Virus record (IMG/VR): IMGVR_UViG_3300017763_000077
Coordinates: 1 to 34,443 of that record
Strand: one strand, 5' to 3'
Length of the DNA: 34,443 nt
Origin: a virus
The notes beneath the pieces were generated by a model. That model ran no database searches. It worked only from the letters and a program-made list of their open reading frames with translations, and was not told the origin of the DNA. Shown here in pieces: positions 547 through 9,048 of the stretch; the first letter of the stretch is position 1; the number at the start of each line of letters is the position of its first letter. A program made the position numbers and the translations under genes.

Positions 547-3500
547 TTAATCATGAAAGTGACAGCGCTTTTTAGGCTTGTCAACCATTAGTTTACATCT
601 AGTACCATCTGATTTTATTTTAGTACATCTTTGCTGTTTAGCTCTTTTTTCTTTTCTAGCTTTTTCATCTGCTTTTTTCTCAGCTTCTTTTTGAGCTTGT
701 TGTTTTAGCGGCAAAAACTTAACATACTCGTTATCCTTGCCTTTGTTTACTACAACTCTTTCACCAACTCTTAAATCCCAAGCGCTCCAACCTAATGTTA
801 AAAACATTCTTTGCATAGCAGAGTTTTCTTGGTTGAAAGCTTCTCTAATGTTATCTGTTTTTCTTATAAGTCTGTCAAGAGGTACGTTTGTTGTGGCTGA
901 TGTTACGTTACCAACAGCATCCCATATCGGGTTGTTGTAATCAAACGTATCCATTTCACCCATAACTTCACGGTTAAACTTATATGTTTTTAAAGCACCA
1001 TATACTTTTCTAGCCTTAGATCCCATTGGTGGAGACACTTGCAGGCCTTCTACTATAACTTCACCGTAGTCTGCTCTAAAACCTTTCTCAGACTGCTCCA
1101 TTATTTCAAGTATAACGTTTTTAATTGTAGCTACAGCAGCTCCTGTCACACCCGAACCTCTTAACAAAGTGTCTATAGTTCCGTTAAGAACTCTCATGGT
1201 TTTTTGATCTAATACTTTTTCGTCATCTTCATCGTCAAAGCTTAATGCAAATATGGCTTGTTGTAGACTAGCAAATATAACATTTTGTATAGCGCCGTAG
1301 TATAATATTCTAGACATGTTACTTCTCCAGTCTCCTCTGCCATTAGCTAAGTCTAGAGCAGCTTTTTTAATCAAACGGTTGTATTGCATTGGAGTGTTAG
1401 CAAAAGCTAATATAAGACGCCCTAGCGGACTCGCTTGTTGCTGAGATATTCTATCAGGTCTACTAGACTGCTGAGTTTCTTGAGCTATTTCTTGAAAATC
1501 TAAAAACGCTTTTTCTTCAGCAGCTTTTTGATCCATACCTTGCTTAACGTATGTATTAATTCTATTTCTATAGAATGTAGATCCACCTGAAGCAATAGCA
1601 AAGCTATCTGCAATTTGTGTTGGTAAGAAACCTTTTTTAAGTAAGTACGCTAAAGCAGCTTTGGCTTTATTCTGAGCGCCGGCTACAGCGTTAGCAAGTT
1701 CAGCTTCATTAACATTTATTTGCAAACCAGCTCTTCTAGCTTTTAAGAAGTCTGAGTTAAATAGTGTAGAGAAGTCTGACCAATACTGCTTTTGATTAGC
1801 TAAAGCTTTACCAGCCGCAAATATATTATTATCATCGTAGTTTATAAAGTTAACTGTAGATAATGTTTGAAGAACAGCAGACCTAGCATTGAAGAACATG
1901 ATTGCGCCAACAGATCCGTTAACCCAATTTGTCCAGCTTTGACCATAGCTTCTACCAGCAGATCTATTAGTGCCATTCTCCATACGATACAATGAATCTT
2001 CTAAAGCACTTCTAAATCTAGTGCCGTAGACAGCTTCTATTTTGTTCATGTTTTCTGGTGAGAATATAATATTTTTATTCTCTATAAACTCTGCTAAGTA
2101 TTGCTTTCTACCTATTTTATTTACAATATTTTCTAAGTCAGAAGCAACAGTCTCAACACTCCAATTTTCACCAGGTTTTATATAACCTTCTTTCTTCTTA
2201 GATATTAACCCTAAAGCGTCTGCAAACGTTTTTAAATCTTGATCTGTGTTAACAACGTTCTTTAAATAAGCTAAGTCTCTTTTAGATATGCCTGGAACTT
2301 CGTAGCCAGCTTTGTCGAATAAATACACTCTTACAGCGTTATCAAAAGTAAAACCGGTGTCTTTGTCTATAATTTTACCTAGTTTCTTTTTTACATTAGG
2401 TAGTTCTTTTCTAAGTGTCTTGTAGTCATCTAGTATACTCATACGAGCAATACTCATTTCACGATCTGCTCTAGCAAATGGATCTAACAAAGCTTTTTTC
2501 ATAAACTCCATGTCTCTATCACCTTGCTTACCTTTGCCGTAGAAGTCGTAAAGCAAACCTGCAAAATCATCAGCTGATGGTGGAATAAAAAATCTATACT
2601 TACCTATATTCTTACCACGCTTTTTACCAACAACGCTTGAAAATACTTTTTTAGCCCCAACACCTTTCTTACGCTCAATCATTTTGTTGAACTCAAGGTT
2701 CATGTCTTTGCTAAACTGAATTTTAGCTTGAACAACTTTAGACTTGATATCTAGTTGATCTAACACGTCTTTAACAGCTTTAACGTTAGGCAGAGCGTCG
2801 TCAACAAAGTACATATCGTTGTAGCCTTCGCTAAACTTCTCTAGCATCCACTCTGCTTTAGCTTCACCCTTACTGTTCCCAAGACCCGTTATATTTTCAA
2901 AAGGTATATTAATACCTTGAGATTTTAGCCACTCATGTATAGGCTTAGCCGCTTCTTGCATACGAGCTGTCAAAACAAACACATTGTTAGACCCATATTT
3001 ACGTATTTGGTTTTTCATTTTCTGTAACAACGGCCCTTCTTTACCGCCTCTAACGTTTACAAAATCTGAAAAGTCAAAACTATATCCTTCGTCAGCATAT
3101 TTAGGTCCATCAATAGGCCATTTGTCAGACGGTATCTTAACTACCTCACCGTCTTTTGTAGCTGTAACAAAGTTTTCTCCATCTATAATTAGTGTTTCGT
3201 CAAAGTCAAACGTTGACATACCTCTTGACCTAGTATCTTTATTGTAAGCTCTAAAGTTGTTAGTAGTTTTACTGAGCGTTAAGCCCTTGTTAAATCCTGG
3301 TTTAGAAAACATTGATTTACCATCAGCGTTTATCTTTAGCTCTTCGCCTAAGCTTTTTCCTTTTACGTGCTGTATTCCTTGAGGATCTATACCGCCTTCA
3401 ATATTACCTACTATTTCGTCAAAGTACCTATCAAACCAGTTGTCTACCATAGTCCAACCTTCGCCCATAGAGGTGTTTCTTTTCGCGCCTTTCAACTTTA

Positions 3501-6500
3501 CCTTATCGTCGTAATTATCTAGAGCTATAAGCTTATAGTTTTGTTGTATTAAATCGTAAGCATTGTCGAAGTTAAAACCTCCTAACGACGTGTGTAGTAA
3601 GTATAAGTAAGCTCTAGTAGCAGGCATAGCGTGCTCCCATTCGTATAGCTTACCATCTTTTCCTTTAGGCTTTTTAGTCCAACCAATAAACTCTGCGCCC
3701 ATACGGTGTGGGTGTTCTGCATTGTTTCCTACAAAAGCAAAAAAGTTACCCCATATAGGAGCGTTTTTATTAGGATTGGCTCTAATAGACCCGTTGATTC
3801 TCTGCCACATTTGTCTATGCATACTAAGATGCATTTCGTTTATTTGCTGAACATTCATTATTACAGCATCTTTTTTTGTGCCTCTTATTTTTCTACCTTT
3901 AGTGTTTGTTTGTTCTATTTCTTTAGGAGTTTTGCCAAAGTATGTGCCGTACTTTATGCCGTACTTGTAATTAGCACCAGCGCCAGTAAAAGCCTCACCG
4001 TACTTCAAATCTTTTTTAGCAAACACCACGTCTCGTTGTTGCTTGTAGTAATCTTCAATACTCATAGTTACCCCGTCAACATCTATTTGTTTTTTAGCAT
4101 TTCCTCTTAGTATTCTATTACTTTTAAAGAAAAATCCTGATGTAACTAGTTCTTTAGGTAGAGTAGGTATAAGTATTTCTTCTGCGTCTTTCCAGAAATC
4201 ATCTACACTGTCTTTGTCTTTGAAATCATAAGTTTTGCTATTAGTGTGAAAGCTTAAAACTTTATCAACGCTAGCCGCTTCGTCTGGAGTAAAGTTTAAC
4301 TCTATGTTATCGGATGAATCAATAAAGCTGTCAACCATTTTAAAAGCTTTACTAAAAGCTAGTTTGCTTTGTGCGGCTGTAACTCTAGATATACTTAACG
4401 GACTAGCTCCTTGAATATCTAAATTTCTTTGAGCGCCTGACAGTGTAACTTGCATAGCCATAGTTTTAGCCATACCTTTTAGCAGTTGGCCTATTGGCGT
4501 TCTGTTGTACAGATTAAGTTCACCTCTAGGTGTTATACCAATGTCTCTTTGAACTTGAGCTATTAATTCCGCGCTAGGTCTTCCTATAAACTTTTCTTTT
4601 AACTTCCACACTGGAACTTGAGAAGTTTTACCTTTAGATCTAACCCTTTTGCCATTAACTACTTTAGGTTCGTAAAAGTAATTTAAAACACTGTTAGGTA
4701 AACCAATAGCATTGCCATATACGTCTCTTTCAACCTCTATATTTTCACCTACTTTATTTACATCAGCATCTTGCTCTGTTACGTTTTCTTTAGGTAGTAT
4801 TCTAATAAAATCTCCTACAGCTTGCTTGTCGTTAAAAAAGTTTTGTATATTGCCCGCTTCAGACTGTTCAGGTATACCGTCAACAAACTTTTTAGCGTAT
4901 GTTAAGTTTGCAGATATAGCTTTACCATTAGCATCCTTATCTAATATTTTACTTGCAGGTACTTGAAAAATTGTAGAAGCGTTTTTGCCAGTGTTACCCT
5001 TAGGATTCGTTAAATCTAAAACCTGTTTAAAACTATCACCTTCTTTAACCTTGGTATTTCTTAGTATGTCAGCGTTTGTATTTCTTACCCTACCGATGTT
5101 AAGCACATTAGTTTTAGGTGGCTTATTGTTTGTTTCTTCAATACCGTCAATAGCGTTATCAATATCAACATCGTCCGGGACCTGTTGGGCTCCTTCTTTG
5201 TCTAAACTTTCAGCATCTCTAGCTAGTCGTTTAGTGGCCTCGTATATTTGCTGCTGCTTAGGCCCCATGTTACTAGTAACGTATGTTGAGAATTTAGAAG
5301 TGGCAGGATTAAATCTCTCTAATATTCCAGGAAAGAAAACTCTAGCCTCCGCTAACACATCTTCTCTACGTATATCACCTTTTCTAGTATCATATTTTAA
5401 AGCTTTCAACGCTAGTAAGTCAAACTGATCTACTAACGCCTCTTCCGCTGTTCTTCTATCTGTTAAGCTAGTAGATGGAGATTTTATTATTTCAACTAGC
5501 TGCTCAGGCGTAAACATTTCACTGTATTGAGCTTTAGAAAACTGAGTTTGACCAGTTTTTTCGACTTTACCTTTTCTAATCTCTTGTATTATTTTGTTCT
5601 TTTTTATATCGCTAAGATCAGCAAGTGTTAGTTGGTCGTTTTTAACTTTATTAGCTATACCAACTAAAAACTTAATAGCATCTGTCTCGCCCGCTAAGTT
5701 AATGTCAATATCAGAAGATTCTTCAACGCCTTTACCAACAAGATAACCTAACATACCGCTAAAAGTAGAGTTCTTTTTAGTATTAAGGTTTATATTACCA
5801 GCTGCAACTTCTTCAAAAAATACAGCTACAACCTCTTGCTCTAGTAAAGATCCATCGTTTCGTCTTTCTGCAAAAGCATTAATTCTTTTATAAACATCTT
5901 GATTATTTGCTTTTGTCCACTCTAATATAGCGTCAGACAAAGGCGCAAAAGACTTAGGATTAAATCCTATAGCATCAGAAAACAAAACGTGCTGAAGCTC
6001 ATGAGTTTTAGTTTCAAGCCTGTCAGCTTTTGCCATATTTTCTATGTTTACTACGGAAACAAAATTACCGTCAGCATCCATCTGCATAAAACCATGCGCG
6101 CCATTATCAACCTCTGACTTGTTATTCTCAGCTTCAGCCTTTACGCTTTCTATAGCGTTGTTTTTTTGAGCGTCTGTTAAACCGCTGTTTTGAATAACTT
6201 TTATCTTATCATCTGCAATTTTATCTAAATACTCTTTTGTTTTTTCTGTAGTATCATGAGATACTAAAGTATTTCTTAAGGCCGTAGTTTTTCTTTTTGT
6301 TTTTTTAGCAATATCTTTTTTGATTTGCTCTGTATTGTATACTATTCTAGCTTTTTCATCAATCTGCTCGTTACTAGGATCGGTAATACCGTCTTGCTCA
6401 AGTAGAGCTAGTTCAGCCTCTTCTCTAATTCTTTTAACTTCAGCTTCATTTTCTTTTCTGCCTTTGAAAATAGAAAAATTATTATTCCAAGTTTTACTTT

Positions 6501-9048
6501 TCTTAAATTCTGTTATACCATCTTGAATAGCATCAAACTCTTGCTTTAACTCTAAAAGCTTTTTATCTTTATCTTTATTGGACAATAAATCATTGTCTCT
6601 AATTTCTGCGGCATCTAGTCTTATATCTTCTTGTCTAGTTATAGCACTAATAAACTCTTTAGCTGCAGCTGGAGACAAGGTTTTGGCTTTAGCATCGATA
6701 GCTGAAACCTCTAAATCTATAAGCGATTGAAGTTCTTCTATTCTACCGCTGTTGTCTTCAATTAACTTTTGTTTTTGAAACTGCACGTTTTGCGATATAG
6801 ATTTTCCTCTTGACAAAAGATCGTTTTTTCTTTGTAAATCTCTTTGTTCTAATCTAAGTGTTCTTATTTGTTCTTTTTGCTTAGCGTCAGAAAACTGTGA
6901 AAGGTACATACCTTTAAAAACAGGTACAGATCCTAAAGTAGTACCAAGCATTAAGCCTGAAAACATAGCATGATCAACACCTTCTAATGGATCTCTACCG
7001 CTTAATATATTTTGAGTGAATTGAGTTAAACCTTCACCGACAGGCTCGGCTACAACACCAACAAGATTATTTTGTGTGACCAAGTTTTTCTTTACATACT
7101 CTTTAACGCCGTTACCAAACATAGCGTTTTTACTAGTGTTAGTTAGCAACGCACTTTTAGCATTTTTTATTAGCATATAAGTTGGAGCAGCACCAAATAT
7201 TGTTTCAGCACCAGCGTAACCTAACGATGTAAGCCACTTTTTAGCTTTAGATGTTGGAACAGCGTCTGGTTCTTGATCTTCACGAATCATGTCACTGTAC
7301 TGGCTACCAAAAGAAGAAGTGCCTATTAATCCCCAACCAGCAGGTGTTGCTAGCGCGGCATATACATGTAGTTGATTAGCTAATTCCTGAGCAGCAAAAG
7401 AGCCAAAGTTATCTAATGAACTAAAAGCATCGTCAAACTCTACATCTTTCTTGTATGACTCTCTTATATTTCTTACTTTATCTTTAAACTTTAACTGAGC
7501 TTCATCATCCACACTAGAATCACCAAAAAACTTAGCTGTACCATAACCAGCGTCTACAGCTAACTCTAAAAAGCCTAGGCTAGCGTCAACAAAAAACTCT
7601 TCTACACCATTATAATTTCTCTTTAATAAGTCTAATTGCTCGGGTGTTCTGTCTACAAAACCTTTTTCAACGTCGGTAACCAGTTCATTGTTTAAGTCTA
7701 CGTAGTTTTTATAAAGATCGTTATACTCTTTGTAGTCTTGTTGATATTTAGCAAAAACAGTTTCTGGTATTTGCTTGCCACTTTCTAAAGTTACTAATCC
7801 TTCACCTGATTGCATTGGTGTTTTAGAGTAATCGTAATCTTCGTCTTCAAATCGCTCTATTGTAGTGGCTAGCCTATTAGCAAGCTCTCCATTATCAAGC
7901 TGTTCTTTCAAAAGCTCTCTATATGTTAGTTTTGACGCGTATTGTTTTTTGTACTGTTCCGCACCTACTTCAAGACTTTTTTTAACCATCTTTTTAACCT
8001 CTGGACTAACATAATCAAGATCGTCTAACTCTTCAAGCACTTTTTCTTGGTTTAAATTCCAAGCCTTATTATTTGCGTTTCTAACAAGTATTTCTTTAGC
8101 CTTGTTTTTTACGTCATCTTCAGTTATAGTAGAGGGATTTTCGCTAGTCTGTTGTAGTATTTTTCGAGCTTCAGCTAACTCTTTTTTGTAAGGCTGTGTT
8201 TTTTTAACATAACTTCTTGGAGCGGCTCCAAACTTAAGGTCTAATCCACCTCCTTGAAATACTTTAACCTCTTCTTCTTTAACGCTAAATAAGTCTTCTT
8301 TGTCAAATGTTTCGTTAATTTGATTTAGCTGATCTTCTGTGGGAGCGGTTGTCTCAAGGTGCTTTTTGAAACTTTTGACATTTTTAGCTTCTTGCTGTAG
8401 CTCTAGTTTGTCTGTTCCTGAAGTAGAGTTTTCATCTAAAAAAGTAGTTAAGTCTTTGTAAGCTTTTTCGTAAGCTTTGTTTTTGTTTTGATAAGCAATT
8501 AACAAGCTTTTTTCTGAGGTGTTTAAAGCTTCAGATCCTTGCTCTTCAAACTTTTTTACAGCCTCTAAAGTTCTACGACTATCTTCGCCTTCAAGAATAA
8601 AACCACCGTCAATGTTAAACTCTATTTTCGTCGACTTATCTCCTTTGCTAACTTTTATAGCGTTAAAAGATTTACGATCACCAATAATATTTGTTTCTTC
8701 AAATTTAAAACCAGGATATCTAGCTATTAAGTCACCGATAGCGTCTTCTTCAGTTCTATCAAAAAAACTATAGTCTAATTTAGTCTTTTCGCCAAAGAAG
8801 TCAGTAGGTACTTCTGGGCGCATCCAATCATATTTATTTTGTTTTGGTGACTCCGAAAAAGTATCTTCCAAGCTGGATGCCGTATCTACTTGACTCGCAG
8901 TTGCATCCTCTGTCTGAGAGCCGTTTGTCTTTTCCACAAGACCTTTCTTTTTCATAGCTTTAATATACTCGTTAAAGTCCATGTTATATTCTTTAGCTTT
9001 ACCTTGTAGTGTTTCTAAAGTAAACTCTTCGCCGTTAATTTCGTACAT
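547..9048 (-). CDS. Giant 2833-aa multidomain virion protein (polyvalent-type; zincin, sigma-region-2-like and HAD domains)
   Basis: This single 8.5-kb frame is probably an internal virion protein ejected with the DNA. Seen in order: a short N-terminal region (1-40); hydrophobic and amphipathic stretches (about 490-510, 550-580, 605-630, 690-712); a charged coiled coil (about 715-960); a zincin-like site HELQH at 1016-1020; a stretch resembling sigma-70 region 2 (about 1197-1285); an unassigned core with WEHAMPA (1803-1809); a HAD phosphatase-like domain (about 1942-2110: D1948 and D1950 in DFDETL, T2027 in LTAR, D2083 and D2084); a large C-terminal region with hydrophobic helices (about 2150-2760); a basic Lys/Glu/Ala helix; and a C2808/C2818/C2829/H2832 cluster. 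The motif FSK recurs at 1170, 1565, 1914 and 2112, mostly near domain edges. It follows two putative internal proteins and precedes the lysis cassette. The giant-protein role comes from architecture and position; the enzyme activities are inferred from motifs. Confidence 0.9.
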   Translation of the reverse strand: MYEINGEEFTLETLQGKAKEYNMDFNEYIKAMKKKGLVEKTNGSQTEDATASQVDTASSLEDTFSESPKQNKYDWMRPEVPTDFFGEKTKLDYSFFDRTEEDAIGDLIARYPGFKFEETNIIGDRKSFNAIKVSKGDKSTKIEFNIDGGFILEGEDSRRTLEAVKKFEEQGSEALNTSEKSLLIAYQNKNKAYEKAYKDLTTFLDENSTSGTDKLELQQEAKNVKSFKKHLETTAPTEDQLNQINETFDKEDLFSVKEEEVKVFQGGGLDLKFGAAPRSYVKKTQPYKKELAEARKILQQTSENPSTITEDDVKNKAKEILVRNANNKAWNLNQEKVLEELDDLDYVSPEVKKMVKKSLEVGAEQYKKQYASKLTYRELLKEQLDNGELANRLATTIERFEDEDYDYSKTPMQSGEGLVTLESGKQIPETVFAKYQQDYKEYNDLYKNYVDLNNELVTDVEKGFVDRTPEQLDLLKRNYNGVEEFFVDASLGFLELAVDAGYGTAKFFGDSSVDDEAQLKFKDKVRNIRESYKKDVEFDDAFSSLDNFGSFAAQELANQLHVYAALATPAGWGLIGTSSFGSQYSDMIREDQEPDAVPTSKAKKWLTSLGYAGAETIFGAAPTYMLIKNAKSALLTNTSKNAMFGNGVKEYVKKNLVTQNNLVGVVAEPVGEGLTQFTQNILSGRDPLEGVDHAMFSGLMLGTTLGSVPVFKGMYLSQFSDAKQKEQIRTLRLEQRDLQRKNDLLSRGKSISQNVQFQKQKLIEDNSGRIEELQSLIDLEVSAIDAKAKTLSPAAAKEFISAITRQEDIRLDAAEIRDNDLLSNKDKDKKLLELKQEFDAIQDGITEFKKSKTWNNNFSIFKGRKENEAEVKRIREEAELALLEQDGITDPSNEQIDEKARIVYNTEQIKKDIAKKTKRKTTALRNTLVSHDTTEKTKEYLDKIADDKIKVIQNSGLTDAQKNNAIESVKAEAENNKSEVDNGAHGFMQMDADGNFVSVVNIENMAKADRLETKTHELQHVLFSDAIGFNPKSFAPLSDAILEWTKANNQDVYKRINAFAERRNDGSLLEQEVVAVFFEEVAAGNINLNTKKNSTFSGMLGYLVGKGVEESSDIDINLAGETDAIKFLVGIANKVKNDQLTLADLSDIKKNKIIQEIRKGKVEKTGQTQFSKAQYSEMFTPEQLVEIIKSPSTSLTDRRTAEEALVDQFDLLALKALKYDTRKGDIRREDVLAEARVFFPGILERFNPATSKFSTYVTSNMGPKQQQIYEATKRLARDAESLDKEGAQQVPDDVDIDNAIDGIEETNNKPPKTNVLNIGRVRNTNADILRNTKVKEGDSFKQVLDLTNPKGNTGKNASTIFQVPASKILDKDANGKAISANLTYAKKFVDGIPEQSEAGNIQNFFNDKQAVGDFIRILPKENVTEQDADVNKVGENIEVERDVYGNAIGLPNSVLNYFYEPKVVNGKRVRSKGKTSQVPVWKLKEKFIGRPSAELIAQVQRDIGITPRGELNLYNRTPIGQLLKGMAKTMAMQVTLSGAQRNLDIQGASPLSISRVTAAQSKLAFSKAFKMVDSFIDSSDNIELNFTPDEAASVDKVLSFHTNSKTYDFKDKDSVDDFWKDAEEILIPTLPKELVTSGFFFKSNRILRGNAKKQIDVDGVTMSIEDYYKQQRDVVFAKKDLKYGEAFTGAGANYKYGIKYGTYFGKTPKEIEQTNTKGRKIRGTKKDAVIMNVQQINEMHLSMHRQMWQRINGSIRANPNKNAPIWGNFFAFVGNNAEHPHRMGAEFIGWTKKPKGKDGKLYEWEHAMPATRAYLYLLHTSLGGFNFDNAYDLIQQNYKLIALDNYDDKVKLKGAKRNTSMGEGWTMVDNWFDRYFDEIVGNIEGGIDPQGIQHVKGKSLGEELKINADGKSMFSKPGFNKGLTLSKTTNNFRAYNKDTRSRGMSTFDFDETLIIDGENFVTATKDGEVVKIPSDKWPIDGPKYADEGYSFDFSDFVNVRGGKEGPLLQKMKNQIRKYGSNNVFVLTARMQEAAKPIHEWLKSQGINIPFENITGLGNSKGEAKAEWMLEKFSEGYNDMYFVDDALPNVKAVKDVLDQLDIKSKVVQAKIQFSKDMNLEFNKMIERKKGVGAKKVFSSVVGKKRGKNIGKYRFFIPPSADDFAGLLYDFYGKGKQGDRDMEFMKKALLDPFARADREMSIARMSILDDYKTLRKELPNVKKKLGKIIDKDTGFTFDNAVRVYLFDKAGYEVPGISKRDLAYLKNVVNTDQDLKTFADALGLISKKKEGYIKPGENWSVETVASDLENIVNKIGRKQYLAEFIENKNIIFSPENMNKIEAVYGTRFRSALEDSLYRMENGTNRSAGRSYGQSWTNWVNGSVGAIMFFNARSAVLQTLSTVNFINYDDNNIFAAGKALANQKQYWSDFSTLFNSDFLKARRAGLQINVNEAELANAVAGAQNKAKAALAYLLKKGFLPTQIADSFAIASGGSTFYRNRINTYVKQGMDQKAAEEKAFLDFQEIAQETQQSSRPDRISQQQASPLGRLILAFANTPMQYNRLIKKAALDLANGRGDWRSNMSRILYYGAIQNVIFASLQQAIFALSFDDEDDEKVLDQKTMRVLNGTIDTLLRGSGVTGAAVATIKNVILEIMEQSEKGFRADYGEVIVEGLQVSPPMGSKARKVYGALKTYKFNREVMGEMDTFDYNNPIWDAVGNVTSATTNVPLDRLIRKTDNIREAFNQENSAMQRMFLTLGWSAWDLRVGERVVVNKGKDNEYVKFLPLKQQAQKEAEKKADEKARKEKRAKQQRCTKIKSDGTRCKLMVDKPKKRCHFHD

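Follow-up and report, generated by a model that had tools for sequence, protein, structure and literature searches.

A sigma-70 domain 2-like segment within a giant modular protein of a probable Bacteroidota podophage

A phage that lacks its own polymerase has to recruit that of the host for the transcription of its first genes. Two ways of doing so from the virion are known, namely the packaging of a polymerase (N4, crassviruses, phiKZ) and the use of enzymes that modify the host polymerase (T4 Alt). Among the closest described systems, the giant virion RNA polymerase of the N4 type (Schitoviridae; PMC12633501) and the virion RNA polymerase cargo of crassviruses (PMC10172136) would share with the protein analyzed here a giant virion protein and a transcription function carried in at infection, and the N4 enzyme also has an HExxH domain, as the phage protein does. 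Those systems carry a whole polymerase, whereas the giant protein described here has a sigma-2-like module as its sole recognizable transcription part, and a search of ten relatives detected no Rpb1-type RNA polymerase. The polyvalent proteins built around a zincin-like metallopeptidase hub (Iyer et al. 2017, PMC5512222) have in common with it the giant multidomain layout, the HExxH motif, the varied domain combinations and the portal and terminase neighbors; autoproteolysis has been proposed for such proteins in general. In that paper, however, no account of a cassette layout bounded by FSK tripeptides or of a sigma-2-like domain was found, and its main text makes no mention of sigma. Similarly, the crassvirus atlas (PMC10172136) has no mention of sigma, and in the N4 polymerase preprint (PMC12633501) the word occurs only inside a software name. 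No published virion or packaged sigma factor or domain was found in the literature searched, the reach of which excluded most subscription journals.

The window, i.e., the whole stretch of DNA analyzed, is a virus record of 34,443 bases that probably belongs to a Bacteroidota podophage; the giant protein under study comes from this marine Bacteroidota phage. The large terminase shares 65% identity with that of the uncultured podovirus MW202828, and 31-47% identity with those of Flavobacterium, Cellulophaga and Tenacibaculum phages. On the minus strand, the genes for the terminase, portal, capsid and tail proteins are found in the usual order, and a single ORF coding for 2833 amino acids comes last (547..9048, minus strand, as for all parts of this ORF given below). 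Synteny with phages phi38:1, phi13:2 and elemoE, in which the last structural gene codes for a large structural protein, places it as the last gene of the structural block. In these cultured relatives the position is occupied by gp101, gp127 and gp18, respectively, annotated as structural or virion structural proteins, so that the virion location of the giant protein is supported by gene context. A tblastn search with the whole giant protein against 50,697 phage records gave no match.

A modular make-up of the giant protein became apparent from pairwise comparisons with relatives, as homology breaks off near residues 1154-1201, 1557-1580, 1903-1946 and 2105-2112. FSK tripeptides at residues 1170-1172 (5533..5541), 1565-1567 (4348..4356), 1914-1916 (3301..3309) and 2112-2114 (2707..2715) coincide with these breakpoints. 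The near-twin L001 is 88% identical across residues 38-1248, and the close match stops at a TQFSK motif, after which a different segment follows. In 24 giant proteins we counted 65 FSK tripeptides against 18 expected, and the median distance from FSK to a breakpoint was 11 amino acids against 56 for rotated positions; both figures include inherited copies, and the events are not independent. From the breakpoints and the enrichment of the motif in related giants, the four internal FSK cassette boundaries are candidate processing sites. A HELQH zinc metallopeptidase-like motif lies at residues 1016-1020 (5989..6003), and HExxH was present in every full-length related giant examined; the region around HELQH matched no Pfam peptidase family. 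We infer that a peptidase built into the protein may cleave at or near FSK. If the shared FSK junctions are cut sites, as they suggest, the modules could be expressed and tested singly.

Homology breakpoints at ∼1154-1201 and 1557-1580 in many relatives delimit a whole exchangeable cassette of ∼395 amino acids flanked by two FSK motifs (residues 1173-1567; 4348..5532), and the sequence comparisons show that it has evidently been exchanged between phages, downstream of the HExxH peptidase-like domain. Its N-terminal half is the sigma-2-like domain. Its conserved C-terminal domain (residues 1306-1566; 4351..5133), which is homologous in the two cassette classes (a and b) treated below, had no PDB sequence match, and no known fold was matched by sequence. 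The third and fourth FSK motifs enclose a HAD phosphatase-like cassette (2713..3306), which matched PF11019 above its cut-off (E=1.4e-5), with weak HAD-IA and polynucleotide kinase matches besides. The second and third motifs likewise frame a cassette (window 3310-4347), which carries a WEHAMP motif and has no Pfam match, and the C-terminal tail of the giant protein (window 550-633) has a zinc-finger-like pattern (RCTKIKSDGTRCKLMVDKPKKRCHFHD). Weak Pfam matches to VG15, YidB, Rpb1 domain 3 and DUF1687 were below cut-off and were taken as chance. A single ORF hence combines a sigma-2-like domain, a HAD-like cassette and an HExxH motif, and the presence of several unrelated domains is a trait of polyvalent proteins. 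Judging from this composition, the sigma-2-like segment is built into a modular, predicted virion protein of the polyvalent-protein type.

The sigma-70 domain 2-like domain, with regions 1.2-2.4, spans residues 1175-1287 (5188..5526), as delineated by profile comparison, hhalign, AlphaFold and structural matches. Single-sequence searches of the window segment against Pfam, PHROG, NCBIfam and PDB (phmmer) gave no match, hence the resemblance is detectable by profiles only. Pfam Sigma70_r2 (PF04542) had no match in the window record, and among the relatives only one (L017) matched it, with 14.7 bits, under the cut-off of 24. Relatives were collected from IMG/VR, first in a 10-row and then in a more diverse 16-row alignment, whose invariant residues include the P of an FxP loop and the K, F, S and T of the KFST motif. 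The 10-sequence profile did not find sigma in the PDB, and the 16 more diverse rows were needed. When the 16-row profile was compared with 177,635 distinct PDB sequences, one significant match was obtained, S. aureus sigma-B (E=5.8e-5), which covers profile positions 3-85, i.e., regions 1.2-2.3; PDB 8x6g chain H is the nearest solved sequence. Aligned by hhalign with E. coli and phage sigma regions 1.2-2, the domain scored 35.9, ∼11 sd above 149 column-shuffled alignments (mean 10.4, sd 2.3, maximum 19.3), and the reversed alignment scored 10.1. The pattern search also caught a genuine phage sigma factor (L044), with 26 bits against the domain profile. An hhalign comparison of alignment A2 with the phages' own sigma alone gave no match (0.3%), and thus a descent of the domain from that gene is unsupported. 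In one relative (L021:8001-8447), the sigma-like domain has an insertion of ∼40 amino acids between the FxP loop and KFST.

With the 16-row alignment, AlphaFold returned a model with a mean pLDDT of 81.7 and values that exceed 90 in most of the core, with helices at residues 1181-1189, 1195-1216, 1228-1245 and 1253-1287. Sigma factors made up nearly all of the top 50 Foldseek matches in the PDB (best E 0.11, probability 0.98) and all 50 of the matches listed by VIA, the best of them being E. coli sigma70 (6ca0_F; Z 8.7, 96 residues, rmsd 3.5). Phage sigma factors were also prominent among the matches in a viral structure library. VIA Z values below 13 are reachable by chance for helical bundles; because Z alone is not proof for such folds, the case for homology is based mainly on the sequence profile, strengthened by the consistency of the hits. 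The preliminary description had read residues 1197-1285 (window 5460-5194) of this ORF as similar to sigma region 2, within a putative ejected giant protein, and had suggested profile searches and AlphaFold as checks. The quoted peptides lie where it placed them. The sole significant profile match is a sigma factor, the hhalign score far exceeds those of the shuffles, the model is confident and its neighbors are nearly all sigma factors. The resemblance is therefore well above chance. As to its extent, a region 2-like segment is indeed present, but its start had been set later than the real one, since a region 1.2-like helix is included and the domain begins at about residue 1175. We conclude that the segment is almost certainly a true homologue of sigma-70 domain 2.

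In the giant proteins of other phages, a different-looking segment (class b, e.g., '..IIAEFKPIVDRIVNKYRDVPGFEYQLLKDEIETGKRGILDMIMDYTPEK..PLAAYIN..') occupies the site equivalent to that of the 16-row class (class a), and it was found in at least 132 IMG/VR contigs. Its AlphaFold model had a pLDDT of 82.8, with sigma factors (sigma32 and others) as top structural matches and a VIA Z of 8.9 to 6ca0_F. The best PDB match of the class b profile was sigma-K with E=0.14, which is not significant by itself; the hhalign score to sigma was 32.2 against a shuffle maximum of 21, and 2 of 31 class b members matched the PHROG 'RNA polymerase sigma factor'. No match to a class b cassette was found by tblastn in the 50,697 phage records. 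A direct hhalign comparison of class a with the shallow class b alignment gave no match, and the addition of the downstream domain and of extra rows then gave an alignment. An alignment of the whole class a and class b cassettes is collinear along 319 columns and brings the FxP loops into register (99.5%), and the downstream domain is common to both (99.7% by hhalign). With a combined class a and b profile, sigma factors took the top five PDB places. From this collinearity and the shared sigma fold, it can be deduced that the two classes form one old, divergent family. A third variant, class c (L001, L002 and L003), replaces the sigma-like half and keeps the same C-terminal domain of the cassette; its N-terminal part is not recognizable as sigma by profile (0.2%). 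Relatives of class a were sought in 84,980 bacterial and archaeal genomes, and none was found at the sensitivity of the scan. A weak A5 match in the giant protein of MW202828 looked on reading like another helical repeat and was rejected.

The functional residues of the 16 class a rows were compared in the hhalign register to E. coli RpoD, the numbering of which was checked. The KFSTY core lies at residues 1252-1256 (5281..5295; sigma70 K426-Y430), with K, F, S and T invariant in 16/16 rows and an aromatic residue at the fifth position in 15/16. The peptide GDIRREDVLAEA had been likened to DLIQEG; it does stand at that position, but the likeness does not extend across the family, where all that is retained of it is an acidic residue at D403 (14/16 rows). 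The domain thus shares with sigma-70 domain 2 (PF04542; S. aureus sigma-B) the fold of regions 1.2-2.4, the order of motifs, the FxP loop, KFST plus aromatic and the acidic D403, and it differs in being located in a 2833-amino acid virion-type protein and in scoring under the Pfam cut-off. Unlike in sigma-70 factors, the contacts with the core clamp are not conserved (S, D or A at the Q406 position; A, F, Y or E at that of E407), the melting dyad W433/W434 is replaced, mainly by N or S and by N, and P-[K/R] takes the place of Q437-A438 in both class a and class b. ECF sigma factors such as RpoE are likewise without the W433/W434 dyad. The downstream domain scored 16.7 against sigma regions 3-4 (shuffles: mean 10.3, maximum 15.1; probability 0.4%), which is not a convincing match, and a region 4 could not be recognized in the sequence comparison. 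Since the fold and the profile homology are present and the Q406/E407 contacts, the dyad and a recognizable region 4 are missing, we consider the domain a homologue of sigma domain 2 and not a sigma factor.

A fold that is kept while the melting dyad and the core-contact residues are altered, a region 4 that is not recognized and the P-[K/R] change common to both classes would suit a sigma mimic or inhibitor, i.e., a domain with the shape of sigma region 2 that does not initiate transcription and that shuts down or redirects host transcription by sitting in the RNA polymerase clamp or by associating with an anti-sigma or sigma-binding protein of the host. PhyR of the alphaproteobacterial general stress response, which mimics an ECF sigma factor to titrate an anti-sigma factor, is a precedent for a sigma-like domain inside another protein; PhyR is a cellular and not a virion protein. 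However, the best-conserved part of the phage domain is KFST plus aromatic, the segment of the non-template-strand pocket that touches melted promoter DNA, which is not required for mimicry of a protein surface, and we regard a mimic as fairly unlikely. Retention of this DNA-contacting motif with loss of the RNA polymerase contacts could also denote an exapted DNA-handling domain, whose sigma-2-like fold would bind single-stranded or melted DNA in packaging, ejection or early genome protection, with no link to RNA polymerase. The protein that houses it does belong to the structural block and also contains a HAD/polynucleotide-phosphatase-like cassette and a peptidase-like motif; nevertheless, a free sigma factor is usually encoded by carriers of the domain, which points to a transcription strategy based on the host RNA polymerase, and such a role is fairly unlikely too. 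That a small helical bundle which happens to have a short KFST-like motif came to resemble sigma region 2 by chance, with no common ancestry, is highly improbable and strongly disfavored: the Foldseek E value is weak, the VIA Z of 8.7 is under the caution level for helical bundles and no single-sequence Pfam match exceeded the cut-off, but sigma-B was the sole significant match in the PDB set, the hhalign score stood far above the shuffles and both divergent classes gave sigma.

A free sigma factor above the Pfam cut-off is encoded in 13 of the 16 contigs of at least 50 kb that carry class a or class b, and a weak match occurs in a further contig; these counts are uncorrected for kinship or contig incompleteness. 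The free sigma ORFs code for ∼233-272 amino acids. Such free-standing ORFs (L047-L051, L053 and L224-L227) were seen in most long relatives, and the 129.5-kb contig of L018 has two of them. In the complete relatives phi38:1, phi13:2, elemoE and MW202828, the domain was not detected in the giant proteins and there is no free sigma; Gundel_1 also has no free sigma, and its giant protein lies outside the domain comparison. No Rpb1-type RNA polymerase was found in ten relatives, and the positive control was detected. A free sigma factor and no Rpb1-type polymerase would fit phages that rely on the host RNA polymerase, redirected by sigma-like proteins.

Our best reading, with a probability of roughly 0.45, is that the segment is an ejected sigma-domain-2-like module that would help to redirect the host RNA polymerase in early transcription. 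In the order of events that we infer, with ejection, proteolytic release and action on RNA polymerase or promoter DNA, the giant protein would enter the cell together with the DNA and would possibly undergo cleavage at the FSK junctions or close to them. Thereafter, the sigma-2-like cassette would act beside or on the host RNA polymerase during the first minutes, via its KFST-aromatic DNA-pocket surface, and would bias the enzyme to the phage early promoters or aid their opening, before the phage's own sigma is made. This model is supported by the homology to sigma in both divergent classes, by the strongest conservation being in the KFST-aromatic pocket, by the free sigma in most long carriers as against none in the four complete relatives in which the domain was not detected, by the negative search for an Rpb1-type polymerase in ten relatives, by the virion context and by the cassette exchange, and it is weakened because Q406/E407 and W433/W434 are not kept and regions 3-4 are unmatched. 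A bolder and tentative proposal, which we hold to be possible, is that a widespread group of Bacteroidota podophages packages a sigma-domain-2-like factor as a cassette of a self-processing polyprotein; once injected, it would capture the host RNA polymerase before phage expression and serve in the stead of a virion RNA polymerase.

The cassette occurs in many phages, which may thus bring a module for the takeover of transcription into the cell. A packaged sigma-like module, if true, would be a third virion solution to early transcription. It would also explain what is done by a giant protein for which 'structural' is otherwise the only annotation.
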